Below are positions 7,660 to 30,920 of a stretch of 64,000 nt of DNA, one piece after another. This stretch comes from Paludisphaera mucosa (GTDB taxonomy: Bacteria; Planctomycetota; Planctomycetia; Isosphaerales; Isosphaeraceae). Within the stretch, counting starts at the first letter, position 1, and every line of letters begins with the position of its first letter. The stretch lies in NCBI RefSeq assembly GCF_029589435.1, contig NZ_JARRAG010000001.1, forward strand, positions 858,808 to 922,807, read 5' to 3'. A program made the translations under genes and the position numbers. The notes under the pieces were generated by a model, which was not told where the DNA came from, did no database searches, and saw nothing but the letters and a program-made list of their open reading frames with translations.

Positions 7660-7673
7660 CGGAGGACCCCGAC

Positions 7674-14285: not shown

Positions 14286-15739
14286 CCATGGACCTGGCTG
14301 ACACCGGCATCAAGCAGCCTCATCCTCTGTGGATGCCGCCCCAAGACCGCCCTTCGTGACCATAACGCGCGGACGACTACGAGGACTCACTCAGACTTCG
14401 TCTCGACCGCCCAGCTGGCCGCGACCCCCTCCGCCGCGACTTACGGCGAGCTCACGACCTTCACGCTCGCGGTCGCCTCCCGGTCCGGCCTGACGCCCGG
14501 CGGCCTGGTCGGATTCTACGACGGCGGCGTGCTGGTGGGCACGGCCCAACTGGACGCCGGAGGCGCGGCCGTCTTCACCATGGGGACCCTCACGGTCGGT
14601 TCGCACGCGATCACGGCGATCTACGCCGGCGACGCCTACTTCCTGGCCCTGGCCTCCGCGCCGATCGCGATCGATTTGGCCAGGAACGACACGTCCGGCG
14701 GGGCGATCGTCTCTTCCGACCCGCAGGTCTACTACGGCGAGACCGTGACCCTCACCGCGACATTCTCGGCCGTCTCGGCGGGCTCGGCGATGACCGGGAC
14801 CGTCGCCTTCTACGACGGCGACGTATACCTCGGCTCCGCACCGCTGGCCGGGCCGGGATCCTCGGGCCTGGCGGCCTCGGCCCCGCCGACGATCCGCGGC
14901 CAGGCGGTCCTGCCGGGCGCCCGGCTCGCCGTGGGCGGGCACGTCGTCCGGGCCGTGTACGGCGGCGACGCCAACTACGCTCCCGTGACGTCCCTCGTGC
15001 CGGTCTCGGTGCTGGTCGACCCGGCGGGGACGAGCACGTCCCTCGGGGCGGCGACGTCGTCCGACGGGTCGACCGTCCTCACCGCCGCGGTCGTCGCCAC
15101 CACGCCGGGCGACGCGCCCCTCGACGGCGCTGTGTCGTTCTACAACGGAGCGACCCTCCTCGGGACCGCGCCCGTCGTGAACGGCTCGGCCAGCCTGAAC
15201 GTCGGGGCCCTGCCGCTCGGCGACAGCACGCTGCGGGCCGTCTACACGTCGGCCGACGGGACGTCCTCGGGGCAGCGCGGGCTCGATCGTCCCCGCCTCG
15301 TCGGGGCCGCGCGTGGTCGGGCCTGAGCCGGTACGGGGTCCACTACTCGGCCACGACGATCGTGCTCTCGTTCGACGGGGCCCTCGACGCCGCCTCGGCC
15401 CAGAATCCCGCCAAATACCGTGTCGCCGACGGCGGCGGACGCGTCGTCCCGATCGCCCGGGCCGTGTACGACCCGACGACGTACGCCGTCACGCTGACGC
15501 CCTCGCAGCGGCTGGACCTGCACCGGACGTACACGCTCGCGGTCGACGGCAGGCTGCCGCAGGGCGTGGCCGGGGCGTCGGGGATCGCCCTGGACGGCTC
15601 GGGCCGCGGGGAGCCGGGGACCGACTTCGTCGCCAGCATCACGTGGCGGGCGCTCGCGGCGCCGGGCGACTCGCCGGCGATGGTCTTCATCGACGGGACG
15701 CCCCACGCGACCACGGCGACGTTTAACAACCAACCTTGA
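14286..15739 (+). pseudogene. Ig-like repeat surface protein, 5'-truncated and frameshifted
   Basis: Three repeats of about 90 residues of the bacterial Ig-like type (Big_3/Big_5-like). Each has YGE-(L/T)-x-T-(F/L) opening strands, (G)-x-V-(G/A/S)-FY-(D/N)-G and a (I/V)YAGDAYF or VYGGDANYAP closing motif. They are open from 14286 but have no credible start codon or signal peptide. After about 15255 the reading frame must shift twice: dropping one G from a GGGG run restores GSAGSIVPASSGPRVVG, and dropping one C from GGGCCTG then joins LSRYGVHYSATTIVLSFDG. The final frame ends at 15739. The protein would have been a secreted adhesin-like or calcium-binding repeat protein. Sequencing error at the two runs cannot be excluded, but the missing 5' end argues for decay. 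Confidence 0.6.
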
Positions 15740-17092: not shown

Positions 17093-17118
17093 TTCCTGTG
17101 TTTCACGGGACGGGGACT

Positions 17119-17190
17119 GCGGCGTGCGGGAGTCGAACCCACCTGTGCACGGATTGAAGGCCGGCCGCCTGGCCGCTCGGCCAACGCCGC
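17119..17190 (-). tRNA. atypical class II tRNA-like sequence
   Basis: On the minus strand a 7-bp acceptor stem (17184-17190 with 17119-17125) encloses a three-base-pair Ser/Leu/Sec-type D stem (GCC...GGC) and a good T arm (GTGGG-TTCGACT-CCCGC). The anticodon arm is poor. The best alignment gives loop CTTCAAT, i.e. anticodon UCA as in tRNA-Sec, but with only about three stem pairs and almost no variable arm. It is 72 bases, too short for a functional Ser or Sec tRNA. A pseudo-tRNA or a scarred integration site is more likely than a working gene. Confidence 0.4.
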
Positions 17191-17261: not shown

Positions 17262-18122
17262 ATGTACTGGATGCTCGCCGCCGCGTTGCTCGGATTCGCG
17301 GAACGCGAGGACGTGACCGTCAAGCTGGTCCTCGACGGCAACACGATCATCGTCGACGCCGCCGTGGAGAAGGGCCTGCTCGTCGACCTGGTCGGCCTGG
17401 GGATGCCCGACACGATCGACGCCAGGAAGCCCCGCTTCCTGGTGGGGGCCGAGGACAAGATCCACCTGGCCAAACACCTGCCCCCCGGGACGGCCGCGAA
17501 GATGGAGCGGGTGGGCGAGACCTCGACGGGCCGGCCCCTGGTCGTGCTCTACCGGGCCGACGGCCTCTGCTGGAACGAGTGGGCCGTGTCGGCCGGGGTG
17601 GGCTTCTTCACCACGACCGACCTGGTCGACTACACGGCCCAGGAGCGGAAGGCCCGGGCCGCGCGGCACGGCGTGTGGGCCCTGGGCCCGGTGGTGCCCG
17701 TCGCCGCGGCCCCGGACCGGCCCGCCGCCCCAGCCCCGGCCGCGGCCGCGGCCGAGGGGGACGATCCCCCGAGCTACGCGTCGTCGTCCCCGGGGGCGAC
17801 GACGCCCCGGATGTACACCAAGGACTTCGTGCCCCCCGCCCGGGTCCGGAAGCGGCGGTACGCCCCCCAGCCCTACATCGGCGTCTTCGCGGGCTCGGAG
17901 GCGTTCTTCGCCAACCCCAACGCCTACGGCTTCGCCCCGCCCTCGGCCTTCGGCTTCGGCGGGCCGCGGCCGGTCAACATCGGCGGGGGCTTCGGCGGCT
18001 ACGGCGTGAACCCCAACCAGCACCAGACAAGCTCCTACACCCGCCGCGACGGCACCCGCGTCAGCGGCTACAGGGCGACCAACCCCAACGGCACGACGGC
18101 CGACAACCTGGGCGGCCGCTGA
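17262..18122 (+). CDS. thermonuclease-fold protein without catalytic residues
   Basis: A 286-residue protein. The ATG at 17262 (GAAGGGG upstream) gives a short hydrophobic N-terminus (YWMLAAALLGFA), possibly a signal. Residues about 15-140 follow the staphylococcal-nuclease layout: VTVKLVLDGNTIIV opening strands, LVDLVGLGMPD where active enzymes have LIGIDAPE, and the closing helix YTAQERKARAARHGVWAL. The catalytic Arg/Glu/Asp positions are not conserved, so binding rather than cleavage is likely. The tail is low complexity (Pro/Ala, then Gly/Phe/Asn-rich) ending in RRDGTRVSGYRATNPNGTT, a motif common at planctomycete C-termini. Confidence 0.6.
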   Translation: MYWMLAAALLGFAEREDVTVKLVLDGNTIIVDAAVEKGLLVDLVGLGMPDTIDARKPRFLVGAEDKIHLAKHLPPGTAAKMERVGETSTGRPLVVLYRADGLCWNEWAVSAGVGFFTTTDLVDYTAQERKARAARHGVWALGPVVPVAAAPDRPAAPAPAAAAAEGDDPPSYASSSPGATTPRMYTKDFVPPARVRKRRYAPQPYIGVFAGSEAFFANPNAYGFAPPSAFGFGGPRPVNIGGGFGGYGVNPNQHQTSSYTRRDGTRVSGYRATNPNGTTADNLGGR

Positions 18123-18150
18123 CGCCGGCCGTCGACCCGGATCCCCGCCT

Positions 18151-18200
18151 ACGCCCGGCCCCTCGGTCGGGCGTTTGCATGCGCGGCGCTTGCAAACGCC
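18151..18200 (+). promoter_or_regulatory. two mutually exclusive hairpins before the small-gene array
   Basis: Stem A pairs ACGCCCG (18151-18157) with CGGGCGT (18168-18174). Stem B pairs GGCGTTTGCA (18170-18179) with TGCAAACGCC (18191-18200). They share bases 18170-18174, so only one can form at a time. They lie 60 bases before the first array gene and have no T-tract. An attenuator or RNA switch is possible; a simple terminator for the gene upstream is the plainer alternative. Confidence 0.4.
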
Positions 18201-18260
18201 GCCCGTCCCGGCGACCTTCGACGTCCGGGACGCAACCGCGAGAAGAAACGGGGGACGACC

Positions 18261-18533
18261 TTGAAGATCGACGGCGAATTGATGCTGGCCATCGCCAGCG
18301 GGACTTCCGTGGGGGTGTTCTGCGGCGACCGACGGCTCGCCGCCGTGGAGACGCGGCGGCTGATGAGCGCCGTGGAGAAGGCCGCGCCCCGGGCGTTGTC
18401 GCACCGCGACGGCGACGTGCTCCGGCGCGTCGAGCGGGGGGCGGGCCGGCGCTGGGACCCGGCCGTCGAGGCGCTGGACGACGCGATCGCCGACGCGACC
18501 GAGGTGCCGCGACCCCGGCGGCCCGGGCCGTGA
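18261..18533 (+). CDS. small-protein array member 1
   Basis: A 90-residue protein from a TTG start with GGGGGA just upstream. The N-terminus KIDGELMLAIASGT matches members 2 (IVPGDLLRAIHSGA) and 3 (PIDGRLMRAIARGV), defining a first subgroup within the array. The rest is Arg/Ala/Asp/Glu-rich and predicted helical, with no signal, membrane segment or cysteine cluster. Its stop TGA overlaps the GTG of member 2. Function unknown. Confidence 0.65.
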   Translation: MKIDGELMLAIASGTSVGVFCGDRRLAAVETRRLMSAVEKAAPRALSHRDGDVLRRVERGAGRRWDPAVEALDDAIADATEVPRPRRPGP

Positions 18534-18829
18534 TCGTCCCCGGCGACCTGCTGCGGGCGATCCACTCCGGGGCCGCCGTGCCCGGGGGCTTCCTGTTCCG
18601 GCCCCAGGTCCGGGCGGCCACGCGCCGGGTCGAGCGCGACCTGGCCCGGGCCGTCGCGCGCACGGTGGCGGCCCGGGACGTGAAACGAGTCGGCCTGCTC
18701 AACCGCGAGCACATGCGGGGGGTGTGGCCCCAGGTCAAGTCGTGCGACGAGGCGCTCGTCGCCGTGATGAACGTGCTGTGGGAACCCATCCCGCGAGAGG
18801 AGGGCGCATGCCCATCGACGGCCGATTGA
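18530..18829 (+). CDS. small-protein array member 2
   Basis: A 99-residue, Arg-rich protein from a GTG that shares GTGA with the stop of member 1, implying re-initiation. It has the subgroup opening PGDLLRAIHSG and then a helix RAATRRVERDLARAVARTVA. A C-terminal half QVKSCDEALVAVMNVLWEP resembles the (D/E)-x3-(L/V)-x-(V/L)-x-(P) ending seen in other members. The last residues overlap the start of member 3. Confidence 0.6.
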   Translation: MIVPGDLLRAIHSGAAVPGGFLFRPQVRAATRRVERDLARAVARTVAARDVKRVGLLNREHMRGVWPQVKSCDEALVAVMNVLWEPIPREEGACPSTAD

Positions 18830-19092
18830 TGCGGGCCATCGCCAGGGGGGTCGGGCGGGAGGAGATGCGCGACCACGACGTACTACGGTCGCCGCTCCGG
18901 GCGACCGACGGCCTGCCCTGGGAGCTGGAGAGGGCCCTGGTGCGGGTCCTGACGGCGGACGGCCATCAGCAGCTCCTGGACCTCGCGGGCGCGATCTGGG
19001 GCCCCTGGCAGCCGTACCGCGACGCCCACGAGAACGCCTATTACGCCGCGATCTGCGGCAAGACCTTCACCAACGCCGGGGGGAACACGTGA
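18808..19092 (+). CDS. small-protein array member 3
   Basis: A 94-residue protein from an ATG with GAGAGGAGGG directly upstream, inside the end of member 2 (22-base overlap). It opens PIDGRLMRAIARGV, nearly the same as member 1. A helix LPWELERALVRVLTADGHQQ follows, and then DLAGAIWGPWQPYRDAHENA, aromatic-rich and partly echoed by GPWEAAAYDAMEWQ of member 4. Stop shared with the GTG of member 4. Confidence 0.65.
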   Translation: MPIDGRLMRAIARGVGREEMRDHDVLRSPLRATDGLPWELERALVRVLTADGHQQLLDLAGAIWGPWQPYRDAHENAYYAAICGKTFTNAGGNT

Positions 19093-19346
19093 CGCTCACC
19101 GAGGAGATCCGCAAGTTCGACCCGGCCTGGCACGCCGCCAACGCCGCGGTGCGGGCGAACGAGCCCCTGTCCGCCATGAAGGTCGCCGTCCGCAAGACCC
19201 TCTACGGGCCCTGGGAGGCGGCGGCCTACGACGCCATGGAATGGCAGGCCGCGAGGGGGCGACCGGCCCCCCGCTCGATGTTCGACGCGGTCCGGGCCGC
19301 GGCCCGGTGGAAGCGACGGTTGGAGGACGACCATGCTGCGAGATAA
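19089..19346 (+). CDS. small-protein array member 4
   Basis: An 85-residue protein with a GTG start in a GTGA overlap with member 3. It lacks the IDGxLM opening; instead it begins TLTEEIRKFDPAWHAAN and has MKVAVRKTLYGPWEAAAYDA, then MFDAVRAAARWKRRLED. Predicted all-helical and basic at the C-terminus. It overlaps member 5 by 14 bases. It is among the more divergent members, so its kinship rests mainly on size, composition and position. Confidence 0.6.
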   Translation: MTLTEEIRKFDPAWHAANAAVRANEPLSAMKVAVRKTLYGPWEAAAYDAMEWQAARGRPAPRSMFDAVRAAARWKRRLEDDHAAR

Positions 19347-19584
19347 GGCGGACGACCTGGCCCGCTGGATCAGCGAGGACGCCATCGCCCGGGAGGTGAC
19401 GCACAGGACGCGGGCTCGGCTGAGGAATGCGATCTTCGACGCCTGCCGCGACAACCCGGCCCGCGACCGGGCCTTCGACACCGGCCCCCGGTTCCTGGAC
19501 CTGGAGGCCTCGATCATGGGGATCAAGCAGGTGCTCAACCTGGCGTTCCGGCTCGAACCCGTACTCCCGCGAAAGGACCGCTGA
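19333..19584 (+). CDS. small-protein array member 5
   Basis: An 83-residue protein from an ATG preceded by TGGAGGACG. Residues 30-60 give the clearest version of the array core: RLRNAIFDACRDNPARDRAF, then D-x3-R-x2-(D/E)-L and a final LAFRLEPVLPR. The same spacing occurs in members 8 and 9. It ends in a TGATG junction with member 6 (one-base overlap). Confidence 0.65.
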   Translation: MLRDKADDLARWISEDAIAREVTHRTRARLRNAIFDACRDNPARDRAFDTGPRFLDLEASIMGIKQVLNLAFRLEPVLPRKDR

Positions 19585-19835
19585 TGAGGAATCGCGACGT
19601 CAAGCTCCTGGCCGAGCGGATCGGCCGGGAGGCGAACGCCATGGCCCGGGGGCAGGTCATCCGGAACCGCTTCCGCCTCGCGGTCCGCGAGGCCTGCGAG
19701 GGCATGACGACGGCCGAGCGGCTGCTCGTGGCCGACGAGGAGACGCGGTACCACGAGTGCAACGCGACGACGTTCGAGACGTGGCGCTGCGTCGACGGCG
19801 CCCTCTACCTGAGCCCCCTGTGGGGGAGGCTTTGA
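19584..19835 (+). CDS. small-protein array member 6
   Basis: An 83-residue protein. It carries the core as NRFRLAVREACEGMTTAERL followed by RYHECNATTFETWRCVDGAL and YLSPLWG. This last block is strikingly close to member 7 (RYAECRASNLETWRPVDEML, TLSPPLG), so 6 and 7 look like a recent duplication within the array. Single cysteines at EAC, HEC and WRC are not arranged as a metal site. Confidence 0.65.
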   Translation: MRNRDVKLLAERIGREANAMARGQVIRNRFRLAVREACEGMTTAERLLVADEETRYHECNATTFETWRCVDGALYLSPLWGRL

Positions 19836-19837
19836 CC

Positions 19838-20089
19838 GTGAAGACGATGAGCCGAGCGAAGATCCTGGCCCGGGACGCCGCCGGCGCCCGCAACGCCCTG
19901 GACGCCTGCGACCGCCCCAAGCGCTGGCTGCAGCTGGTGCTCGCCGAGTCCCTCGCCGCCGAGGCCCGGGCCCGGCTGGGGTGGTCCCTGGAGCTGGACC
20001 GCTACGCCGAGTGCCGGGCCTCGAACCTGGAGACGTGGCGGCCCGTGGACGAGATGCTGACGTTGTCCCCCCCGCTGGGAACGAGGTGA
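19838..20089 (+). CDS. small-protein array member 7
   Basis: An 83-residue protein. I prefer the GTG at 19838, eight bases after GGGGGAGG, over the ATG at 19847. Its second half, RYAECRASNLETWRPVDEML, is the close partner of member 6, while the first half is more divergent (SRAKILARDAAGARNALDAC). It is separated from member 6 by two bases and from member 8 by four. Confidence 0.65.
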   Translation: MKTMSRAKILARDAAGARNALDACDRPKRWLQLVLAESLAAEARARLGWSLELDRYAECRASNLETWRPVDEMLTLSPPLGTR

Positions 20090-20093
20090 CCCG

Positions 20094-20357
20094 ATGCGAA
20101 CCGCCGACGAGATCGCCCGCGACTGCGCCTACGACGACCCGGCCAAGCCCCGCAGCGTCGGCCCGCGGTGGGACGTCGAGGCCCGAATCCAGGCCGCCCT
20201 GAAGGGCTCGCCGTTCGTCGACCGCGTGTTCAACGAGTCGCACCGGTTCCGGGAGCTGGCCGGCGCGGTCATGGGCCCGCAGCAGGCGTGCGAATCCATG
20301 TTCCTGGACCGGCCCATCCTGCCGCGGTGGGGCGGCTCGGAAAGGAGATCACGATGA
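20094..20357 (+). CDS. small-protein array member 8
   Basis: An 87-residue protein from an ATG. The core appears as VEARIQAALKGSPFVDRVFN then SHRFRELAGAVMG and MFLDRPILPRW. This keeps the (D)R-(A/V)-F-(D/N)-x3-R-x-(R)-EL pattern of members 5 and 9 although the first Cys is replaced. Its stop shares ATGA with the start of member 9. Confidence 0.65.
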   Translation: MRTADEIARDCAYDDPAKPRSVGPRWDVEARIQAALKGSPFVDRVFNESHRFRELAGAVMGPQQACESMFLDRPILPRWGGSERRSR

Positions 20358-20617
20358 AGACGCACGTTGACCCCGTCGCCGTCGCCGCCCAGGCGGCCTA
20401 CGCGGCGGCCGTCAGCGCCGGCCAGAAGACCCGAGACGTCCGCAAGAAGCTCCGCGAGCGGTTGCGGGCCGCCTGCCTCGACTCGCCGATCGCCGACCGG
20501 GCCTTCGACCGCGAGCCGCGGGACCGGGAGCTGGTCGGACCGGCCCACGACGCCTACCTGGCCGTGGACGTCATGCTGTCGGTGCGACCCCTGTCACGCC
20601 GGAAAGGAGGTCTCTAG
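20354..20617 (+). CDS. small-protein array member 9
   Basis: An 87-residue protein with AAAGGAGATC ten bases before the ATG. The core reads LRERLRAACLDSPIADRAFD, then REPRDRELVGPAHDAY and VDVMLSVRPLSRR, aligning directly with members 5 and 8. An Ala-rich N-terminal helix (VAVAAQAAYAAAVSAG) is specific to it. Its stop TAG shares a base with the GTG of member 10. Confidence 0.65.
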   Translation: MKTHVDPVAVAAQAAYAAAVSAGQKTRDVRKKLRERLRAACLDSPIADRAFDREPRDRELVGPAHDAYLAVDVMLSVRPLSRRKGGL

Positions 20618-20877
20618 TGGCCCGCAGCGATCACCCCGGGACCCTGGCCGAGGACATCAGCTGGCAGGGGTCCGTCGCGCATCCGGCCCGTCGCCCCCAG
20701 GTCGTCTTCCACGACGTCATCGAGGCGGCCTGCCGCGACATGCCGGTGCGGCTCCTGGTCCGGGTGCACGCCCTCGGCGGCCGGTACGAGGAGCTGCCCC
20801 TGGCGGCGGTCGACGTCACGCCGCTCCTGAAGGACCTGCTCGACCCGTTTCCGCCGCCCAGAAAGGTAGGACGATGA
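20617..20877 (+). CDS. small-protein array member 10
   Basis: An 86-residue protein from a GTG preceded by AAAGGAGG. The core is FHDVIEAACRDMPVRLLVRV then GGRYEELPLAAVDV and LLKDLLDPFPPPRK. The EAACRD and R-(Y)-EEL elements match members 5, 9 and 11, and the Pro-rich ending matches the LxPxLPR endings elsewhere. The stop overlaps the ATG of member 11 (ATGA). Confidence 0.65.
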   Translation: MARSDHPGTLAEDISWQGSVAHPARRPQVVFHDVIEAACRDMPVRLLVRVHALGGRYEELPLAAVDVTPLLKDLLDPFPPPRKVGR

Positions 20878-21134
20878 TCTGCAAGTTCGACCCGACGGGC
20901 CGGCTGGTGGACCGGATCCACGACCGGTTCCGCGCGTTGCATCCGACGGGCATGGTCAAGGCTCGGGTCCAGCGCGCGCTGGAGGCCGCCTGCCGGGAGT
21001 CGGATCCGGACGTCCAGCTCCGGGTCCCCCTGGGATCGGGACGGGCCGAGGTGTGGTGGGACCTGCAGCACACCGTGACGGACGTCCTGGAGGGGGCGCT
21101 CGAAGCGAATCACGTCGACCGTACGCCCCGGTAG
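20874..21134 (+). CDS. small-protein array member 11
   Basis: An 86-residue protein with GAAAGGTAGG before the ATG. It starts ICKFDPTGRLVDRIHDRFRA and has the core VKARVQRALEAACRESDPDV, then a divergent RAEVWWDLQHTVTDVLEGAL in place of the usual R-x2-EL block. It is the last gene of the overlapping series; GC-rich repeats follow. Confidence 0.65.
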   Translation: MICKFDPTGRLVDRIHDRFRALHPTGMVKARVQRALEAACRESDPDVQLRVPLGSGRAEVWWDLQHTVTDVLEGALEANHVDRTPR

Positions 21135-21246
21135 GCGCGGCCGACCCGCCCTCTCCTCTAACGCGAGCGCCGGCGATCCTCGCCGACCCGCCCTCTCCCC
21201 TTCTCGCGGGGCTCGTCCGAGCGCCGCGACCCGCCTCGCGGTTCAT

Positions 21247-21420
21247 CCGGCGTTCCCCCGGGGGAATCGTCCGGCGTTCCCCGCGCGCGGCTCGCCAAAT
21301 CGTCTGGCGTTCCCCGCGCGCGAGGCTCGCCAAATCGTCCGGCGTTCCCCGCGAGGCCACGCAAATCCTCCGGCGTTCCCCGGGGGGATCGTCCGGCGTT
21401 CCCCGGGGGGATTCTCCGGA
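21247..21420. repeat. interspersed CCGGCGTTCCCCG repeat cluster
   Basis: Six copies of the word (C)YGGCGTTCCCCG, separated by 10-22 bases that often end AATCGT or GGATCGT and, in two copies, contain GCGCGNGGCTCGCCAAATCGT. Unit lengths vary from about 23 to 35 bases, unlike a CRISPR array. It lies 112 bases after the last array gene and carries no convincing ORF. Confidence 0.7.
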
Positions 21421-21518
21421 TCCTGGTCTTTCCTGGGCGCGGACCCGGACCGACCATCAGGTCCGCCCTGGTCCCTCCGAGGCTCCATCGAGTCTCGGTA
21501 TTTCTCCCATTCCCCAGG

Positions 21519-21576
21519 GGGGTCCCGGCCGTGAGGCCGGGGACCCCGCTGAGGGGGGATTAACGTAGTTAATCCC
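21519..21576 (+). promoter_or_regulatory. two consecutive strong hairpins
   Basis: The first pairs 21519-21530 with 21535-21547 around a GTGA loop with one bulged G. The second is a perfect nine-base inverted repeat, GGGATTAAC (21556-21564) with GTTAATCCC (21568-21576) around GTA. The latter is also a good operator-like palindrome in otherwise GC-rich DNA. They lie 50-110 bases before the next small ORF. Confidence 0.5.
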
Positions 21577-21627
21577 ATATGCGACGAGGGCGACACCATT
21601 ACTGGCGTCGAATCGTCAGGAGCCAAC

Positions 21628-21750
21628 ATGATGGGCACTCTGGAGAAGCCTGGTATGACGAAGAAGGCGGGTCGTAAAATCCCAGCTCGGGCGTGTCGTC
21701 TCCCTGCTTTCATATCCGATCCCGGATCCGGCCCGGGAGGGCCCTCGTGA
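21628..21750 (+). CDS. 40-residue leader-like ORF
   Basis: An ATGATG start with CAGGAG seven bases upstream. It encodes a short basic peptide (residues 8-20 PGMTKKAGRKIPA, later a single Cys and a Gly/Pro tail). Its TGA shares GTGA with the GTG of the following gene, the same coupling used inside the array. It may be a translational leader for that gene or a separate microprotein; no family recognised. Confidence 0.45.
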   Translation: MMGTLEKPGMTKKAGRKIPARACRLPAFISDPGSGPGGPS

Positions 21751-22781
21751 GCGCCGCGGAGGGCTCCGGATCGACCCCCCGGGGGCCCCGACGGGCCGTG
21801 ATGTGCCGGGCCGTGGTCCGGCCCCTGGTGGGATCCCGCCGCGCCGCGACCCGCGAGGGCCACTCGGTCCTGCGCGGGGCCTGGATGCGGTTCGCCTTCG
21901 ACCATGCGCCCATGTTGCGGGCGTACGCCGAGGAGAACGCCCCCGACGCCAGGAAGATCCGGGGCCTGGACTACCACGTCGGCCGGCGGATGCGGTGCAT
22001 CGCCGGCTGCGGCTCGCCGATGCTGCCACCGCTCGCGAAGCGGATCCGCTGCGCGTTGCCCGCGCTCTGCCCCTTCTGCTGGGCCCGGTCCGCGGGCCGG
22101 GGCTGGGACCGGATCGCCGACCTGCTGCACCCCCGGCTCGAAGGGTCGCTGCTGCGCGAGCCCGACTGCCCCTTCGACCTGGTGGCGACGACGCGGATCT
22201 TCGTCCTCACGGTCGGGCCGGCCCGGTTGCTGACCGAGCGGATCGAGGGCAAGAACTACCGCGACGCCCTCGCCATCCCCTCCCGGGTGGTCGAGCTGCG
22301 GAACCGGCCGATCGTGGCGGGCCAGGAGGTCATGACGCTCTTCCCCAGGCTGATCCACGGGGGGACGAAGCTCATGATGGCGGCCGCGGTCCGCCAACTT
22401 CTCGTCGTCGAGCCGGGCGTCGAGCTGGGGCCGTTCAAGGCCGACCCCCGCTGGCCGGAGGTCAAGGTCGTCCGCTACGAGCGGCCCGGCCTGGGGCGGA
22501 CCATGAACGCGGTCGCCAACCTGTACCGCTACCCGGCCGAGATCCTCATGGCCGTGCCGGCCGACCGCGTCCTGGCGGCCCGGCTGGACGGGGCGCTGCG
22601 GCTGCTCCTGGACCTGCGGCGGGTCCCGGTCGAGCCGCCCGCGGAGCGGCCGCCGCCGCGCGAGAAGGGCCGCAAGCGCCGCGACGCCCGCGAACGCCAC
22701 CTGATCGCCTCGTTCGGGGAGTTCCGGGGCGGGGTCGTCCCCCGGACCGACCTGGGGGGCGGCCGCCGGGCCGGGCCGTGA
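21747..22781 (+). CDS. Cys-rich hypothetical protein, faint rolling-circle Rep-like zinc region
   Basis: A 344-residue protein; the GTG at 21747 overlaps the stop of the 40-codon ORF. Residues about 80-125 contain MRCIAGCGSP and IRCALPALCPFCWARSAGRG. The second resembles the Cys/His zinc stem that precedes the catalytic domain in some rolling-circle Rep proteins, but I see no HUH motif or catalytic tyrosine context. The middle has hydrophobic strands (ATTRIFVLTVGPARLL). The C-terminus is very basic (PPPREKGRKRRDARERH), suggesting nucleic-acid binding. Context (array before, degenerate DNA after) does not settle its role. Confidence 0.6.
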   Translation: MSAAEGSGSTPRGPRRAVMCRAVVRPLVGSRRAATREGHSVLRGAWMRFAFDHAPMLRAYAEENAPDARKIRGLDYHVGRRMRCIAGCGSPMLPPLAKRIRCALPALCPFCWARSAGRGWDRIADLLHPRLEGSLLREPDCPFDLVATTRIFVLTVGPARLLTERIEGKNYRDALAIPSRVVELRNRPIVAGQEVMTLFPRLIHGGTKLMMAAAVRQLLVVEPGVELGPFKADPRWPEVKVVRYERPGLGRTMNAVANLYRYPAEILMAVPADRVLAARLDGALRLLLDLRRVPVEPPAERPPPREKGRKRRDARERHLIASFGEFRGGVVPRTDLGGGRRAGP

Positions 22782-22882
22782 CGCCCGGGCCGCTTAGGGT
22801 GGCTATCGCCGCGGCCGCGACCCCTCCTCCGGGGGTCGGCCGTCCCGAGATGCTGATTCCCATCTTTCACCGAGGAGGTCCC

Positions 22883-23125
22883 ATGCCCCGGAAACACCCC
22901 CCCGCGGATTACATCCCCCCCGTCAAGCCCTCGGCCGCGGCCCCCGACCCCGAGTCGGCCACGCCCAAGGTGGCCTCAGGCCGGCCCGCCGACCAGCGGC
23001 CGATCCGGCTGCTGGCCAGCTCGACGCGGCAGAGCCTGGGGCCGCTGATCGAGCGGGCGGCCGTGACGGCCAAGGTCTGCGGCTGCGCGAGTCAGATGCA
23101 GCCCGGAACTCTTGTGACCTGTTGA
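22883..23125 (+). CDS. small hypothetical protein, possibly truncated
   Basis: An 80-residue product from an ATG with a strong GAGGAGG six bases upstream. The N-terminus is Pro/Ala/Lys-rich and disordered (PRKHPPADYIPPVKPSAAAP); residues 43-65 look helical (LLASSTRQSLGPLIERAAVT). The last 12 residues run into DNA of different character, so the original C-terminus was probably cut off where the degenerate region begins. Confidence 0.45.
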   Translation: MPRKHPPADYIPPVKPSAAAPDPESATPKVASGRPADQRPIRLLASSTRQSLGPLIERAAVTAKVCGCASQMQPGTLVTC

Positions 23126-24020
23126 CGAGCCTGGTCAACGCGGGGAAGGGTTGACGCCCTTGATACGGCTGAGATTTGCCACAAAGCACCGGAGCGAGAG
23201 CGAAGCGTCCTCCAGGGCGATAAGCCGTCGCAAGTGCTTTGAGGTGAGCACGATGAATCGCATCGAAGGTGGACAATCCAGCCCAATCGCCTTTGATAGG
23301 GTTAGCAGGGACGCCCGGGGCTTCCCTGCGGCTCAAGGACGGAAGCATGTAACTCGGCACGACCAGTGGCGGACCCCTTCGCCGATCGGATGTTCGGTGT
23401 CCGACGCCAAGGCGAACGCAGGGCTTGGAGGTGTAGTTCTTGATCAACGGCTCGACGATTCAGGCCCCTCCGAGCAGGGCCGACAACCATTCGTGCTGAG
23501 CGAATCAGCGCGCTTGCGCGAGTTCGTCGTCAGAGAGCGGGGGGGGCAGGAGGCCCAAGTCCGCGAAGTGTTCCGACGGACCTGAGCCCTCGAAAGCGAT
23601 CATAGTCGGCGTGGATGCCATACCGACGAAGCGAGAGCCGTGTCTTCGCGGTTTTCTCGAGCCCTCGTGCTAAGAGCGGTTCGGTGAAACCAAGCTCCTA
23701 AACGGCGTGTCCCCTGGGGTTACGTCAATCACACCGAGGACGGTGACTTCGGTGAAACGGGACGGCGGCACACCGCGACCATCCGTCCCGTGAGCCGAGG
23801 AAGAAGCCGTCCCATCCTGTAGAACGGTGGGAGGGACGCCTCTGCCCAAGGTCGTTCGGCCCGGGCCAACTTCAGGGCGCCGAGACTTCCGGGGAGGATT
23901 CACCGAATGGCTCGCACATCGGTGAAAGTAGTGCAAAGGAATGTGAGGTCGAGACTTACAAGTCGGATTCACCGAAGAGCTTCGTGTAAGCGGGTCTGGT
24001 GATTTAAGATCACCGGGACT

Positions 24021-24174
24021 TGGGCCGGATTTGCGCAGCCGTCGCTTCGTCGTGAGCCACGGCCCCTCTTCCAGGGTCTTCGGCAGCTGGGCCGGATTTG
24101 CGCAGCCGTCGCTTCGTCGTGAGCCACGGCCCCTCTTCCAGGGTCTTCGGCAGGTGGGTCGGATTTGCGCAGCC
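24021..24174. repeat. 67-bp tandem repeat, about 2.3 copies
   Basis: Near-identical copies at 24021-24087 and 24088-24154, then a partial third copy from 24155 (TGGGTCGGATTTGCGCAGCC). The unit begins TGGGCCGGATTTGCGCAGCC. The period is exactly 67, so the frame changes between copies and it is unlikely to be coding. Confidence 0.8.
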
Positions 24175-24208
24175 ATCCCTTCCTCTTGCATGCCGCGGCG
24201 GCCCCCCT

Positions 24209-24318
24209 CTCAAGCTCATCGGGGAACGAGCCGGATCGGCGCTTTCTCCAGACGCTTCGACTCGGCGACCTGCCGCTTGACCCCTCAAGCTCATCGGGGA
24301 ACGAGCCGGATCGGCGCT
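24209..24318. repeat. 35-bp direct repeat, two copies
   Basis: The 35-base word starting CTCAAGCTCATCGGGGAACG occurs at 24209-24243 and 24284-24318, 75 bases apart, with unrelated spacer. It lies directly after the 67-bp repeats and shares GCCGGAT words with them. No ORF use is apparent. Confidence 0.75.
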
Positions 24319-24552: not shown

Positions 24553-24759
24553 ATGCCAGATCAGAACACCAAGCCCGCCGCGCGGCGCGGCAACAAGCAA
24601 CGTCCTGTCGTCCTGACTCCCAAGGACGTCGCCGTGCTCGACCGCTGGACCCGACATCGATACCCGGGCGGCGCTAGCGCGACGCAGATCTTCCGGGACC
24701 TCTTGTACAACGCCGTGGCGTCGCTTCCCGGCGCTGGGGAGGGTCAGAACCATGGATGA
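24553..24759 (+). CDS. small basic protein, possible ribbon-helix-helix regulator
   Basis: A 68-residue protein with GAGGACGAA before the ATG. A basic disordered start (DQNTKPAARRGNKQR) leads to PVVLTPKDVAVLDRWTRHRY and SATQIFRDLLYNAV. The strand-helix-helix order and size fit a ribbon-helix-helix DNA-binding protein such as a copy-number or transfer regulator. Its end overlaps the primase-like gene by eight bases, so both are probably expressed together as the element's first genes. Confidence 0.6.
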   Translation: MPDQNTKPAARRGNKQRPVVLTPKDVAVLDRWTRHRYPGGASATQIFRDLLYNAVASLPGAGEGQNHG

Positions 24760-25927
24760 GCTTCAGAACACGGGCCCGCCCGAACCCGTCCGGCGCGGCC
24801 GCCTCCTCGTCCACCCCGTACACACGCCAGGGTTCCCGCCGTGCGACTCCATCTCGATCCTCGAAGACAGGGTGGAGCGGATGCGCGGGAGGAGGCAGAG
24901 GATTCTCGACGAGGCCCTCCGGTTGGTCTCGGCGGGGTTCAAGCTGGCGCTGACGGATTCTCTCGAAGGCGACGGTCGTAAGCCCCAGTTCAAGAGGTGG
25001 CACCTCGACCCGCTCTCGACCGAGGTCGGCGTCCGCGACGCCTTGGCTCATCGGCGGGACTCGAACTTGATGGTCGTCACCGGGCCCGGCATGGCCCCCG
25101 ACGGCTCCTGGCTGGTCCACCTCGAGGCCGACGCGGCGAAGGACGACCCATGGGGGCCCAGCCGCGCCTTGGCCGAAGAGAGCCTCGCGCGATTCTTGGC
25201 GGGCGTCGGCGAGGCGCCGAGATGGGAGTCTCGCCGCGGGCTCCACACCCTGGTCTCGGTCCCCGACAAGTTCGGACGAGCCTTCCACGCCGAGCTGAAG
25301 TCGCACTCGGTGCCGGGATTTCCCGGCCTCGACGCGATCTTCGGCGGCTTCAAGCCGGACGGCGTACGCAAGGCGACTTCGGCCATGGTCCCGCCGAGCG
25401 AGACCGACGGGGTCGAGCGCGTCTGGGTCTTCCCAACGACGGTCGTCGCCCGGCTGCCGGAGCACGCGCTCAATATCCTCGCCACACTCGCTTTCGGGCG
25501 AGTCGACGAGGCCGAGGCGGTCCGTCAGGCCTGGTTCGCCGCGCGCGCGGCTCGCCGCGCGCTGCGGGCGGTCGAGGATGACGAAGACGTGGAGGAAGAC
25601 GAAACCGACGCGTGGCACGCGTTCCGCCGCGGGACCATCATCCACGACTTCGAGCAGATCGGCCCGGCCATCAGCGGCCGGGGAGGTCACGACGCGACGT
25701 TCCGCGCCGCCTGTTCGATCGTGTCCGGGGGCGTCGAGGACGAGGAGGAACAGCGGGAGCTGCTCCAGATCTTCAACGACGACTACTGCAGTCCCCCATG
25801 GAGCAAGGACGAGTTGACGCACAAGCTCGAGGATGCGAACCGGGTCGTCGGCGGTGATCGCGCGAAGGAGACGAGGCTCGAGAAGATGTTCAAGCGTCGC
25901 TACTGGACTCCATGGACACTGAGGTGA
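24752..25927 (+). CDS. PrimPol-like primase of a mobile element
   Basis: A 391-residue protein. Residues about 55-135 resemble the bifunctional primase/polymerase N-terminal domain: AGFKLALTDSLEGDGRKPQF (substrate Lys-x-Pro turn), RDSNLMVVTGPG, then WLVHLEADAAKDD where family members place metal-binding acidic residues. After SRRGLHTLVSVPDKFGRAFH, a C-terminal block is typical of element primases: SGRGGHDATFRAACSIVSGG, LLQIFNDDYCSPPWSKDEL and KLEDANRV. It would start replication of the element. The usual D-x-D is degenerate (HLEAD), so catalytic competence is uncertain. Confidence 0.65.
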   Translation: MDELQNTGPPEPVRRGRLLVHPVHTPGFPPCDSISILEDRVERMRGRRQRILDEALRLVSAGFKLALTDSLEGDGRKPQFKRWHLDPLSTEVGVRDALAHRRDSNLMVVTGPGMAPDGSWLVHLEADAAKDDPWGPSRALAEESLARFLAGVGEAPRWESRRGLHTLVSVPDKFGRAFHAELKSHSVPGFPGLDAIFGGFKPDGVRKATSAMVPPSETDGVERVWVFPTTVVARLPEHALNILATLAFGRVDEAEAVRQAWFAARAARRALRAVEDDEDVEEDETDAWHAFRRGTIIHDFEQIGPAISGRGGHDATFRAACSIVSGGVEDEEEQRELLQIFNDDYCSPPWSKDELTHKLEDANRVVGGDRAKETRLEKMFKRRYWTPWTLR

Positions 25928-26026: not shown

Positions 26027-27637
26027 ATGTCCGATCTTAACATAGGCGACGTCGCCGAGGATGAAATTTGCGGCGAGTCGCCCGCGACGCCCGCGAACTT
26101 TGGCGGTGGCGAAGGGGATGCGATCATCCCCCTGGCGGAAGATGAGCCCGCCGGGTGCCCGCCGGGCGTGGCGGGCCGACCGGGATGGCTCGACGTCGTC
26201 GAGAAGAAGCAGGCGATCGAGGCGAAGGCCGAAGAGGCCGTCGCCAAGGCCGGGGACAAGCCGACGCCCAAGGCTGGAAAGAAGCTCGCGCAGAAGCCCC
26301 TGAAGGAACGCACCGACTCCGAGTTGGGGCTTAAATGGGGGGACGGCGAGGACGACGACTCGGAGGCCGAGCCCGTGATCGACCGTTTCGCCACCCCCGG
26401 CCAGTTGACGCTCCTGGCCGGCGACGGCGGCTGCGGCAAGACGCAGTTCGCTTTGATGATCGCGGCCCTGGGTTCGGTTGGGCGGGGGGTCACCGACGAA
26501 TTCCGGGTGGATCGGCCCTTGCGCTTCCTGCTCGTCAGCGGCGAGGACCAGGTCAAAACCTCGCTCAGGCCTCGGCTCCGCGCCTGCGGTTCCGACTTTT
26601 CGAGGATCGTCTTCGCTTCCGCATCGATCACGAATCTCAATGACCAAGGCGACCCGGTCGAGATTCCCGTATCGCTCGCGACTACCGACTACTGGAACGA
26701 GATCCTCACGCGCTCAAGGCCCGACGTCCTGATCATCGACCCGATCACGCATTACCTTCCGGGGGGAGCTAGCAGTAACGACGCCGACGAGGTCACGCAG
26801 GCGATCGCCCCGTTCCTCGCCATGGCGAAGCGCCACGGCACCGCGGTCGTCGGCATCGTCCACCTCGCGAAAGCCAAGGCCAAGGATCGCCGAAGCCTGG
26901 CAGGGCTGGTTCGCGGATCCACGGCGTGGGTCGCTCTCGCGAGAAGATTGTTCCTCATGACCTTGACCCCCGGGTCGGACGGCCATGGCGTCGTCGTCCA
27001 CGGCAAATGCAACGACGGTCCCCGAATCGCATCCTTCGGCTATTGCATCGCGTCCATCGTCGTAGAAGCCGCTGTCAGTCCCGGCGGCAGATATACCCCC
27101 GCGGAGATGCGGGCCATCGAGCGCCTCTCGATCTTGAATATCGAGGGCGTCGTCGACCGCGATGACGCCGAGGGTGCCTTCGACGGCACTCGTCCCAAGG
27201 GTCGTCCCGCCGCCGTCGGCCCGGAGGCCGCCTTGTGGCTCGTGACCTACCTCCTCGCTCAGCGGAAACGCCGGAGCATACTGAGCAAGCTTGTCGACGC
27301 CGCCGGCATCGCAGGCATCCTGGGCTCTGCCGTGGGAGAAGATGAGGATGGTCGTGCCAAGTACTCGTCGATCAACGCCTTGTACAGGGCCCGCGACCTC
27401 GTACCCAAGTTGGGCGGAGATTGGGCCGGCGCGAGCGTCTTCAGCGAAGGGTCGAAGCCGACGAGATGGACCTTGGCGCTGCCTGCGCCGCTCGCCACGC
27501 CGGGCCAGAGCCTTCAGGAAGAGGAAGCCCCCGGGATAAACGCCGCTTGCCCCACGTTAGATGAGTCACAATCGGTGATCGTCGAGATGGCCGCTGGGTC
27601 GAACGAGCCCCACGCTCCGGGGTTGGTCGAGAGTTGA
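26027..27637 (+). CDS. RepA-like AAA ATPase / replicative helicase
   Basis: A 536-residue protein with GGAGG ten bases before the ATG. An N-terminal acidic/Lys-rich arm of about 120 residues precedes a RepA/AAA_25 RecA-type core. The core has TPGQLTLLAGDGGCGKTQFA (Walker A, residues 132-139), LLVSGEDQVK, a Walker B at PDVLIIDPITHYL (about 234-246), and KDRRSLAGLVRGSTAWVALA as the helicase sensor region. The C-terminal third resembles winged-helix tails of such proteins. Together with the upstream primase it forms a replication module of the plasmid/integrative-element type. The gap to the primase is 99 bases. Confidence 0.8.
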   Translation: MSDLNIGDVAEDEICGESPATPANFGGGEGDAIIPLAEDEPAGCPPGVAGRPGWLDVVEKKQAIEAKAEEAVAKAGDKPTPKAGKKLAQKPLKERTDSELGLKWGDGEDDDSEAEPVIDRFATPGQLTLLAGDGGCGKTQFALMIAALGSVGRGVTDEFRVDRPLRFLLVSGEDQVKTSLRPRLRACGSDFSRIVFASASITNLNDQGDPVEIPVSLATTDYWNEILTRSRPDVLIIDPITHYLPGGASSNDADEVTQAIAPFLAMAKRHGTAVVGIVHLAKAKAKDRRSLAGLVRGSTAWVALARRLFLMTLTPGSDGHGVVVHGKCNDGPRIASFGYCIASIVVEAAVSPGGRYTPAEMRAIERLSILNIEGVVDRDDAEGAFDGTRPKGRPAAVGPEAALWLVTYLLAQRKRRSILSKLVDAAGIAGILGSAVGEDEDGRAKYSSINALYRARDLVPKLGGDWAGASVFSEGSKPTRWTLALPAPLATPGQSLQEEEAPGINAACPTLDESQSVIVEMAAGSNEPHAPGLVES

Positions 27638-28140: not shown

Positions 28141-28211
28141 TTAGAGCGGTTTCCTGTTGATTGTGGCGGTTGACGCGGTTATCCCAAGATGGCTATGGAG
28201 GGCCACCCGGG

Positions 28212-28586
28212 ATGAAAGCCTACTCGACCGACCTCCGCGAGCGGGTGGTCGCGGCGTGCGACGCCGGCGACGCCACCCGCGAGCAGGTCGCCGCCCGCTT
28301 CTCGGTGAGCGTCGCGTGGATCCGCAAGCTGATCCGCCAGCGTCGCGAGACCGGCTCGATCGCCCCCAAGCCTCGCGGCGGCGGGCGGGCGCCGGCCTTC
28401 GACGCCGACGCCGCCCTGCGGCTCCGAGAGGCGGTCCGGGCCGACGACGACGCCACGCTGCAGCAGTTGGCCCGCGCCGCCGGCGTGGCGTGCTGCAGCT
28501 CGGCCGTGCACCGGGCGCTCGTCCGCCTGGGGATCACTCGCAAAAAAAGTCGCGGCGGGCGGCCGAGCAGGACCGCCCCGGGCTGA
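28212..28586 (+). CDS. IS630 transposase, ORF A (DNA-binding part)
   Basis: A 124-residue frame starting MKAYSTDLRERVVAACDAGD, the standard IS630 N-terminus. Helix-turn-helix segments follow: ATREQVAARFSVSVAWIRKL and a second winged-helix-like part ending SSAVHRALVRLGITRKKS. It binds the terminal inverted repeats. At 28542-28548 an A7 run lets ribosomes slip back one base into ORF B, producing the full transposase. Confidence 0.85.
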   Translation: MKAYSTDLRERVVAACDAGDATREQVAARFSVSVAWIRKLIRQRRETGSIAPKPRGGGRAPAFDADAALRLREAVRADDDATLQQLARAAGVACCSSAVHRALVRLGITRKKSRGGRPSRTAPG

Positions 28587-29182
28587 AGGCCGAGCGTGCC
28601 GCCTGGCGCGACGAGTTCGCGACGCTCGACCCGACCCGGCTGGTCTTCGTCGACGAGACGGGCTCGAGCACGGCGATGGATCGGACGCACGGCCGCTCGC
28701 CCAGCGGCGTGCGCGTCGACGGCCCGGTCCCGCACGGCCACTGGAAGGTCGTCACGCTCACGGCGGCCGTCCGGCTGGGGGGCGTCGGGGCCTGCCTGGC
28801 GTTCGACGGGGCGACAGACTCGGCCGCCTTCGAGACCTACGTCGAGCGATGCTTGGCGCCGACGCTGAGGCCCGGAGACGTCGTGATCCTCGACAACCTG
28901 TCATGCCACAAGACGGCCGAGGCGGCCCGTCTCATCGCCGCCGCCGGGGCCGAACTGCGGTTCCTGCCGCCGTACAGCCCCGACCTCAACCCGATCGAGC
29001 GGATGTTCTCGAAGGTCAAGGCCTGGCTCCGATCGGCCAAGGCCCGGACGATCGGCGGCCTGATCGAGGCGATGGGCGACGCCCTGCGGGCCGTCCGTCC
29101 CGCCGACGTGCTGGGCTGGTTCCGCCATAGCGGATATCAGCCCCGCCGATCAAGCGATACACCCGACGAGAAACCGCTCTAA
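28541..29182 (+). CDS. IS630 transposase, ORF B (DDE catalytic part)
   Basis: Read in the -1 frame after the A7 run, joined to ORF A as one protein of about 320 residues. The catalytic triad is visible: Asp of RLVFVDETGSS, Asp of VVILDNLSCHK, and Glu of PYSPDLNPIERMFSKVKAWL. The stop codon lies in the right inverted repeat. All key residues are intact, so the copy may still be active. Confidence 0.88.
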   Translation, partial: QKKSRRAAEQDRPGLKAERAAWRDEFATLDPTRLVFVDETGSSTAMDRTHGRSPSGVRVDGPVPHGHWKVVTLTAAVRLGGVGACLAFDGATDSAAFETYVERCLAPTLRPGDVVILDNLSCHKTAEAARLIAAAGAELRFLPPYSPDLNPIERMFSKVKAWLRSAKARTIGGLIEAMGDALRAVRPADVLGWFRHSGYQPRRSSDTPDEKPL

Positions 29183-29308
29183 TCATCTCCCGGTCGAAAA
29201 CCAGCCATGCTGCGAGGAAACCATCGGAACTGCTATTGGTGCAGCGCAAATCCCCCCTCGATAAATGGGGCATGGACCCTGCGCTTCGTGGGGCGGACTT
29301 CGTGGGGG

Positions 29309-29605
29309 ATGAAGACGATGGGCGAACTGCTGACTGTCGGCGACCTGGCCGCAAGATGGGGGCTGAGCCAGCGCCAGGTCCGGTCCATGATCAGGTCCGA
29401 AGGTGTGCCCACGATCGAGTTGCACAAGAGGCGGCGCTACATCAATTGGGGCTCACTCCGCTTCAGGCCCGAGGCGATCGCGGCATGGGAGGATGGCCGG
29501 GAGAGGGCACTGGCGAATCTCAAGCCCCCCGCCGGCCTCTCCCCACCGAAGGCCCCAACCCGGGCCCTCGGCCCCCGTGGCCGGCTGGGGACCTGGAATC
29601 TATAA
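29309..29605 (+). CDS. excisionase-like HTH protein
   Basis: A 98-residue protein if started at the ATG at 29309 (the ATG at 29318 is an alternative; the longer open frame upstream is not protein-like). It has a MerR/Xis-type winged helix: LLTVGDLAARWGLSQRQVRS then MIRSEGVPTIELHKRRRYIN and RFRPEAIAAWE. The tail is Pro-rich. Its last six bases overlap the end of the convergent recombinase gene, the typical xis/int pairing, so it probably controls excision of the element. Confidence 0.75.
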   Translation: MKTMGELLTVGDLAARWGLSQRQVRSMIRSEGVPTIELHKRRRYINWGSLRFRPEAIAAWEDGRERALANLKPPAGLSPPKAPTRALGPRGRLGTWNL

Positions 29606-30775
29606 GCGACGACCTCTCCGCCCGGCCGCGGCGGCCGCGGCGAGGTGGGCCATGGACAGGTGCGCGTAATTCTTCGTGACCATGTCCGCGCTGGTTCCGA
29701 GGAGCTCGGCGACGGTCGCGACGTCGATGCCGCACATGAGATATCGGCTGGCCGCCGTGTGCCGCCATGCGTAGCTCCTGAGCCGACCCGTCCCCTCGAC
29801 GGGGATCTCGATGCCAGCCCCGGCCGCCTGCAGTCGAAGTCGACGCGTCCGCATGCCGAGCGCGTTCTGGTCCCAGGGGTTGCCTGAGGCCGCTCGGAAG
29901 ATGAGCTCGCCGCGAGCCGGCCGAAGTCGTTCGTAGAGCCGGCGGAGAGGCCGGAGGATCGAGGCGGTGAGGATGATCCGCCGGGGCCCGCCGCCCTTGG
30001 CCGCGTTCTTCCAGCGGGACCGCGTTATCAGGCCATAGGACGCCCCTACCGGGGTCGTTCCTGCCACCCAGGTCACTTCACCCCAGGTCGCCCCAAAGAC
30101 CTCCGAGGGCCTGGCTCCAGTCTCGATGAGAACCCGTTGAAGCAGTGTGAAGTTTCTGGCGGATTCGGCTCCCGAGCGTCGGTGCAGCCATCGAAGCCAG
30201 GCGGCGGCGTGACCTCGGGTGAGGATTTCGACGTCGCGTCTCTGGACCTTCGGAGCCTTGAAGCCCTCGAGTGGAAAGGCCGGGATCCGGCCCTCGCGGG
30301 CCGCCCACCGTAGGGCCGTCATGACTCGCCTCGACGCAGTCGCGAGGTGGCTGGAACTGACGGTGGCCGCAGAGTGGCCGGGCCGCCTCGCCCACTGGTC
30401 CAGGACCGCCTGGAGGTGTTTGTTCCCGAGCTCGCCGGCCGGGATCGCTCCGAACTTCACGCCGCCGATCGCGAACTTGCAGGCGGTGGTCAAGTGGTTG
30501 ACCGTCACCTCGTAGGCACCCTCTGTGAAGTCGCCTCGGGCGACCCGTTCAGCCAGGTGCTCGAGATAGCTCTCGAAGACTTCGGCGACTGCGAGGGGGG
30601 CCGCCGCTGCCTCGGAATCCTTTCGCGCGGCCGCCTGGAGCGACGAAAGCCAGGCCCAGGCCCCAGCCTCGTCGCGCTGTGCGATCTCCTTGGGGGCTGC
30701 CTGTCTCTTGCCGTCGATCGTTGCCGCCCATCGGCCTCTGTCCGCCCACCACCAAGGTGAATTCGGTCTCGCCAT
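29600..30775 (-). CDS. tyrosine recombinase (integrase)
   Basis: A 391-residue phage-type integrase. After an N-terminal DNA-binding region it has a SAM-like core-binding domain (about 60-165) and a catalytic domain. The catalytic domain has Arg222 (LIETGARPSEV), Arg338-His339 (YAWRHTAAS) and the nucleophile Tyr370 (TKNYAHL). The first His of the usual HxxR box is Tyr335, and the LGH box reads LGT (residue 361), both departures from consensus. The gene begins about 100 bases from a tRNA-Arg-like 3' end, the expected position for an integrase at its attachment site. Confidence 0.88.
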   Translation of the reverse strand: MARPNSPWWWADRGRWAATIDGKRQAAPKEIAQRDEAGAWAWLSSLQAAARKDSEAAAAPLAVAEVFESYLEHLAERVARGDFTEGAYEVTVNHLTTACKFAIGGVKFGAIPAGELGNKHLQAVLDQWARRPGHSAATVSSSHLATASRRVMTALRWAAREGRIPAFPLEGFKAPKVQRRDVEILTRGHAAAWLRWLHRRSGAESARNFTLLQRVLIETGARPSEVFGATWGEVTWVAGTTPVGASYGLITRSRWKNAAKGGGPRRIILTASILRPLRRLYERLRPARGELIFRAASGNPWDQNALGMRTRRLRLQAAGAGIEIPVEGTGRLRSYAWRHTAASRYLMCGIDVATVAELLGTSADMVTKNYAHLSMAHLAAAAAAGRRGRRL

Positions 30776-30848: not shown

Positions 30849-30920
30849 GTCCCTGGTAAATAGGCCAATAGCAGCGACCCTCCGAAGGTCGCGGACCAGG
30901 TTCGACTCCTGGCGAGGGCA
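30849..30920 (+). tRNA. tRNA-Arg(CCG)-like sequence with degenerate 5' half
   Basis: From 30875 on it is a good tRNA 3' half: anticodon stem CGACC/GGTCG with loop CTCCGAA (anticodon CCG), T arm CCAGG-TTCGACT-CCTGG, acceptor strand CGAGGGC and discriminator A. The 5' half (30849-30874) forms a poor acceptor with one mismatch and no D stem. This is what is left when an element brings in a tRNA 3' end as its attachment site; a functional tRNA is doubtful. Confidence 0.5.

Follow-up and report, generated by a model that had tools for sequence, protein, structure and literature searches.

An array of eleven small overlapping genes near integration and replication-type genes in Paludisphaera mucosa

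Phage early or host-takeover clusters and anti-CRISPR operons are runs of small orphan genes, often overlapping, which lie in accessory regions and usually mix unrelated families. Here, we describe an array of eleven small genes in a stretch of 64,000 nucleotides (nt) from the 8.2-Mb genome of the planctomycete Paludisphaera mucosa (contig NZ_JARRAG010000001.1, hereafter C1, C1:858808-922807; this whole stretch is referred to as the window). The array resembles such clusters as an overlapping run of small orphan genes in a probable accessory region and differs from them in that ten members appear, by sequence comparison, to belong to one family and in that no phage structural gene was recognized with confidence near it. 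Clusters of small accessory genes in mobile elements, the kind to which the array would belong, are known; its family and its use of a single scaffold appear to be new within what was searched, and judging by titles and the beginnings of abstracts, such an array was not found described in the literature.

The rAID arrays of Bacteroidales consist of short diverged genes in one orientation, and a tyrosine recombinase is present in their region (PMC12247911). The array presented here looks similar at a distance, being made of co-oriented short diverged genes in a stretch that also encodes a tyrosine recombinase, and differs in its spacers, its gene size, its single orphan family, the position of the recombinase and the lack of any immunity domain found. 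Integrative elements that combine a tyrosine recombinase with a tRNA gene are a further close counterpart, since an integrase, an excisionase-like gene, a tRNA remnant, a Prim-Pol gene and a helicase-like gene are all present in the window; the locus differs from them in that its left attachment site was not found and in that it encodes an orphan protein of 326 amino acids (aa) whose relatives were found only in its own taxonomic family. This mobile-element neighborhood, which the original prediction of the array had not placed, changes which functions are likely. With somewhat less than even confidence, we favor the explanation that the array serves an integrative, plasmid-like element as accessory operon and that its products, as they diverged, came to bind different targets in the host or in rivals.

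Layout and coding evidence of the array

Positions 18261-21134 of the window are filled by eleven head-to-tail open reading frames (ORFs) of 83-99 aa on the forward strand, as originally predicted:

18261..18533, forward: array member 1, 90 aa, TTG start
18530..18829, forward: array member 2, 99 aa
18808..19092, forward: array member 3, 94 aa, marginal family membership
19089..19346, forward: array member 4, 85 aa, coding, family membership not proven
19333..19584, forward: array member 5, 83 aa
19584..19835, forward: array member 6, 83 aa
19838..20089, forward: array member 7, 83 aa
20094..20357, forward: array member 8, 87 aa
20354..20617, forward: array member 9, 87 aa
20617..20877, forward: array member 10, 86 aa
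20874..21134, forward: array member 11, 86 aa

The TTG start of member 1 is supported over the internal ATG by the opening that it has in common with members 2 and 3; this shared opening of members 1-3, proposed earlier, is seen in the alignment. The G+C content of the members at codon positions 1, 2 and 3 lies at 0.65-0.80, 0.46-0.57 and 0.90-0.96, respectively, and the six-frame coding score ranks the proposed frame top in every member, so that both measures support protein coding for all eleven ORFs. The eleven-ORF overlapping array is real and coding.

The distances between consecutive ORFs are, in order, -4, -22, -4, -14, -1, +2, +4, -4, -1 and -4 nt. The original prediction of nearly universal overlap thus holds for eight of the ten junctions, while the remaining two are spaced by 2 and 4 nt. 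Similarly, the individual Shine-Dalgarno sites it had assigned were recovered for eight of the eleven starts (a core of at least 4 nt no more than 20 nt upstream), the exceptions being members 1, 2 and 4. A scan of positions 18000-22000 identified no sigma-70-like promoter, which carries little weight in this phylum. Past the end of the array, it found two terminator-like sites, at 21408 and 21477, compared with 1.0 expected.

Relatives within and outside the array

Paralogy within the array was assessed by pairwise Smith-Waterman scores compared with 200 shuffles and expressed as Z. The strongest relationships were found within members 5, 8 and 9 (Z 10.3-13.4), followed by the pairs 6/7 (10.0), 1/2 (8.9) and 10/11 (7.2), and these subgroups are linked by the pairs 6-9 (7.1), 1-11 (6.0) and 5-10 (5.3). 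In addition, a leave-one-out analysis was performed, in which a profile of ten members was scored on the eleventh and compared with two controls, 722 overlapping pieces cut from other predicted proteins and a set of 300 shuffles. Nine of the eleven members scored above the entire background of pieces and shuffles. Member 3 was marginal, being beaten by two of the 722 pieces and none of the 300 shuffles, and member 4 was not separable from the background (16/722 pieces, 17/300 shuffles). As far as sequence comparison can tell, ten of the eleven members are one strongly diverged protein family, with member 3 marginal and member 4 not proven. The earlier view that the array is a single overlapping unit of one diverged family, without a match among known families, is consequently retained for ten members and not for member 4.

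The divergence is considerable: identity to the first row of each member alignment amounts to 14-34%. A profile built from members 5, 8 and 9, proposed at the outset as a test that could refute the family, found three of the remaining eight, namely members 6 and 10 clearly (exceeded by 0/722 background pieces) and member 11 (exceeded by 2/722); it missed members 1, 2, 3, 4 and 7, of which four are recovered by a ten-member profile. Judged by this stricter test, the one-family claim does not hold for five of the eight. Some details of the sequence motifs first put forward need correction. Members 6 and 7 do share the ETWR motif, though the spacing is EC-x5-ETWR instead of x4. The DRAFD core assigned to members 5, 8, 9, 10 and 11 is present in 5 and 9, while member 8 carries DRVFN and members 10 and 11 lack it, and the LPR ending assigned to the same five is found in members 5 and 8 and is absent from the other three.

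Neighboring members resemble each other more closely than they do when the gene order is randomized (permutation p 0.013, on pairwise Z), and part of the array growth may therefore be ascribed to tandem duplication; members 5 and 8, although similar, do not lie next to each other. This pattern in the sequences points to growth of the family at least partly by tandem duplication.

Comparisons with described families yielded little. No member reaches a cut-off in Pfam or NCBIfam (lowest E 0.014 and 0.011), and the lowest PHROG match of any member has an E of 0.047. PADLOC aligned residues 12-59 of member 9 with positions 669-718 of the 1180 positions of BrxC (12.8 bits, E 0.0039) and returned no match for the other ten members; the match, spanning 48 residues at 12.8 bits, was set aside as chance. 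The array profile gave nothing below E 0.24 among PDB sequences, and array queries found nothing in viral contig collections. With member 5 as the sole query, none was found in a phage collection, and with member 9 as the sole query, a plasmid collection returned one match (E 0.1).

Genomes were searched in three sets, 45 from the family, 392 from the phylum and 397 from the class, which overlap, include the genome of the window itself and represent a sample of the phylum; in the two larger sets, scoring was limited to 13 first-look candidates per genome. Although the full-array profile recovers all eleven members in these searches by construction, outside the array it gave single weak matches, with best E per genome of 0.028, 4.1e-4 and 3.6e-4 for the 45, 392 and 397 genomes. 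The search of the 45 family genomes, a check suggested at the outset for arrays of similar length, yielded no convincing relative. Inspection of eleven weak-match loci on the forward strand (L012, L013, L040, L041, L043, L045-L049 and L051, with L011, L014-L039, L042, L044 and L099-L104 left out) for small coding ORFs revealed no array; L048 contains two neighboring small ORFs. The only match outside the array to member 5 as a single query, in L007, was taken as chance; a longer ORF overlaps it on the other strand.

The AlphaFold model of member 5 is all-helical, with helices at residues 2-37, 44-48 and 51-74 (predicted local distance difference test, pLDDT, 72; predicted template modeling score, pTM, 0.39).

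The putative mobile element around the array

Downstream of the array, the window contains the following features, with which the array would form an element:

21232..21419, no strand: iteron-like repeats, six direct CGTCCGGCGTTCCCC-type copies (21232-21405) and a partial copy, spacing 23-35 nt
21556..21576, no strand: inverted repeat with perfect 9-nt arms GGGATTAAC/GTTAATCCC and a loop of 3 nt, located after the repeats and before the 326-aa gene
21801..22781, forward: orphan protein of 326 aa containing a CPFCW motif, putative replication initiator on weak fold evidence
22883..23125, forward: 80-aa ORF
24752..25927, forward: Prim-Pol primase/polymerase-like protein (E 7.3e-5)
26027..27637, forward: AAA_25 (helicase-like) protein (E 2.2e-24)
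28157..29182, forward: insertion sequence with a DDE_3 transposase (family match)
29207..29605, forward: excisionase-like helix-turn-helix protein (PHROG 66 excisionase, E 6.7e-5)
29600..30775, reverse: tyrosine recombinase, the integrase (PF00589, E 1.1e-13; PHROG integrase, E 1.5e-33)
30851..30919, forward: tRNA-Arg(ccg) call, beside tRNA-Arg(gcg)

The repeat cluster begins about 100 nt after the end of the array, and the 326-aa gene follows the array at 670 nt on the same strand. The exact 13-mer TCCGGCGTTCCCC occurs seven times in the 8.2-Mb genome, five of them within the repeat cluster, and is the sole 13-mer of the window that occurs five times within 200 nt. From its place beside these repeats, a role of the 326-aa protein as replication initiator is plausible. 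Its model (pLDDT 62, pTM 0.64) shows a beta-alpha core, for which VIA-align 2 ranked SIRV1 ORF119 (2x3g), which we take to be a Rep protein, first (Z 7.9, root-mean-square deviation 3.6, 103 aligned residues), a best Z of 7-8 being usual where there is no clear match; wheat dwarf virus Rep reached Z 4.8. This likeness to HUH/Rep initiators is countered by a Foldseek result that is not significant (E 0.15), by the pLDDT of the model and by the lack of an HUH motif, as no His is present among the 38 invariant columns of a three-sequence alignment that includes one partial sequence. In searches of 45 genomes from the family and 397 from the class, relatives of the 326-aa protein were identified in G032 (about 38% identity) and G020, with fragments also present in G037 and G030; all of them come from genomes of the window's own family. 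A wider scan of genome contigs returned only two loci that were already known, and none was found among viral contigs and plasmids. In G030 (L108 1221-2754), the fragment lies beside a gene that looks transposase-like by eye and probably marks a related element that has been disrupted.

The helix-turn-helix gene beside the integrase scores 24.6 bits against HTH_17, just below the Pfam cut-off of 27, and an excisionase-like gene is situated beside the integrase in L092 and L109 too. Its match to a PHROG terminase small subunit (E 0.0067) is the sole packaging match, and no capsid, secretion, pilus or phage structural gene was recognized with confidence among the element proteins scanned. The integrase is 43% identical to that of L092 and 46% identical to that of L109. 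G029 carries, beside tRNA-Arg(gcg), an integrase of 46% identity and the 3' half of the tRNA-Arg(ccg) called in the window; because this half recurs beside a related integrase, tRNA-Arg(ccg) is probably the attachment site.

A related element of a congener is L092 in G032, in which the 326-aa homolog is followed by a 47-aa ORF, the excisionase (53% identity over 66 aa) and the integrase. L109 shares the integrase and the excisionase, and L092 additionally the 326-aa protein. The LLASSTRQSLGPLI segment of the 80-aa ORF in the window resembles, by eye, the 47-aa ORF of L092, with tblastn giving no match. A two-copy 46-nt repeat is located just upstream of the 326-aa homolog in L092. Upstream of this homolog, L092 also exhibits a mostly co-oriented run of small genes (3240-7731), ten of which were scanned in Pfam with none at cut-off (one DUF6225, E 0.0011). 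Weak pairs exist among them (6393/6749, Z 4.8; 4316/4654, Z 4.6). A relationship between these genes and the array was rejected, as the best cross Z was 3.7 in 110 comparisons and the profile E was 0.024 at best. By this one comparison of sequences, each element may have its own set of small genes in the region 5' of the 326-aa gene.

To the right of the putative element, a block starting at about 31.0-31.2 kb is common to the five other genomes of the genus. On the left, synteny extends to window position 13986 in G031, where positions 1655-3002 then follow inverted, indicating a rearranged region, and to about 13915 in G028. The stretch at 14501-15733, which encodes Big domains, has 66-80% matches elsewhere in G028, G030 and G032, and between 15734 and 18250 only the tRNA-Glu and short matches are left. 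This tRNA-Glu(ttc), encoded alone at 17118-17190 on the reverse strand, has an 88% similar sequence about 34 kb away (C1:842248) and may be an extra copy. It was tried as the left attachment site and rejected, as no exact word of at least 13 nt is common to it and positions 18000-31200.

Several further observations concern the same region. Directly 5' of the array, a 286-aa gene (17262-18122, forward) looks thermonuclease-like by eye and has no Pfam or PHROG match. A 67-bp tandem repeat (2.4 copies, 95%) is located at 24021-24182 in a gap without predicted genes. In G028 (L086 1261-4277), 23 consecutive tRNA genes adjoin the block that matches window position 31.2 kb, where the window carries only tRNA-Arg(gcg) and the tRNA-Arg(ccg) call. 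In G031 (L129 5463-7004), the inverted match to window positions 1655-3002 is followed by an intact tRNA-Arg(ccg) of different sequence, and none is called at the matching place of the window. Further away, an Rfam 5' ureB small RNA match (8942-9210, forward; 65.8 bits, gathering threshold 40) lies opposite the ORF 7674-9395, a urease subunit by eye.

Competing explanations and implications

If the array does serve as accessory operon in a mobile element of integrative, plasmid-like type, its members would be translated by coupled re-initiation from one mRNA, which overlapping stop-start junctions permit. Less certainly, the products might be small cytosolic helical proteins that bind other proteins. 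By analogy, each diverged copy would meet a different host, defense or rival-element target, and the array would act as a hedge kit for the establishment and maintenance of the element; we infer, again by analogy, that small, fast-diverging paralogs of accessory regions most often are binders which protect the element or adjust the host.

Several points weigh against this explanation. The searches located neither a left attachment site nor a left border of the element in the window or the genome, and inclusion of the array in the element is therefore only inferred. Codon use of the array is close to that of the host (r 0.975) and gives no hint that the genes were acquired recently. In L092, about 2.4 kb separate the end of the small genes from the 326-aa homolog, which makes the parallel a loose one. 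No homology or fold bearing on function was found for the array: in Foldseek searches, the member 5 model gave no PDB match and viral models at E 7.5 or worse, which is chance, and a model with this pTM is too weak for naming a fold. The divergence could be drift after duplication, and the binding of different targets is an analogy.

The composition of the products would also suit proteins that bind nucleic acid in the replication, copy control or segregation of the element, each copy recognizing a variant site. Arginine accounts for 13.6% of the array residues and for 7.8% in the predicted host genes of the window, the isoelectric point exceeds 8.5 in eight of the eleven members, and a repeat cluster and a hairpin lie 100-440 nt downstream of the array with replication-type genes near. 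Weak matches to a PHROG excisionase (member 1, E 0.076), a PHROG DNA-binding protein (member 5, E 0.85) and the Pfam MlrA helical domain (member 5, E 0.14) would agree with this function, but they do not exceed chance, the isoelectric points of members 3, 10 and 11 are close to neutral (6.3-6.9), and copy-control systems usually need far fewer than eleven genes. Such a role is regarded as unlikely, and a somewhat lower probability is given to the proposal that the members are subunits of one heteromeric assembly whose stoichiometry is set by translational coupling. Here, subgroups such as 5/8/9 resemble copies and not distinct positions, the related element of a congener carries unrelated small genes instead, and none of the element proteins scanned was confidently recognized as capsid, secretion or pilus protein, even though every junction overlaps or nearly abuts and the alignments show a common core with variable surroundings. 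Matches to HrpB1/HrpK (member 1, E 0.068) and to gas vesicle GvpJ (one member, E 0.055), which would favor an assembly, are at chance level.

An orphan immunity array of the rAID type, in which each protein neutralizes a different incoming toxin of one family, is suggested by the co-oriented short diverged paralogs and by the tyrosine recombinase in the same stretch. However, no known immunity family was matched at the Pfam or NCBIfam cut-offs or below E 0.047 in PHROG, the overlapping or abutting genes of 83-99 codons, with a largest spacer of 4 nt, leave no room for intergenic motifs, and the recombinase is located about 8.5 kb downstream on the other strand, beyond the replication-type genes. 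We consider this quite doubtful, a little more so than an assembly. A tandem amplification, neutral or decaying, of one element gene into copies without individual functions would account for the strong divergence, for the failure to find homologs outside the array and for member 4, which is unrecognizable as a relative; it is nevertheless the least probable of these alternatives, being weakened by eleven open frames with coding bias, eight Shine-Dalgarno sites and a family signal in ten members, because decay would have broken some of these frames and signals.

The accessory-operon explanation can be taken one step further. The array may represent a new kind of element-encoded bank of multi-target inhibitors, in which one small helical scaffold, duplicated to ten or eleven copies, makes up one coupled operon and every copy is adapted to its own defense system or rival element, while related elements retain the integration and 326-aa genes and carry unrelated scaffolds upstream in exchange. 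In this specific form the idea is unlikely to be correct as it stands. The position of the array beside integration and replication genes, together with a related element that carries other small genes, marks a defined place in which to seek new accessory proteins, and the array itself offers a test of whether tandem duplication within an element can build a bank of binders. If the copies were indeed inhibitors, several unknown targets would be revealed at once.

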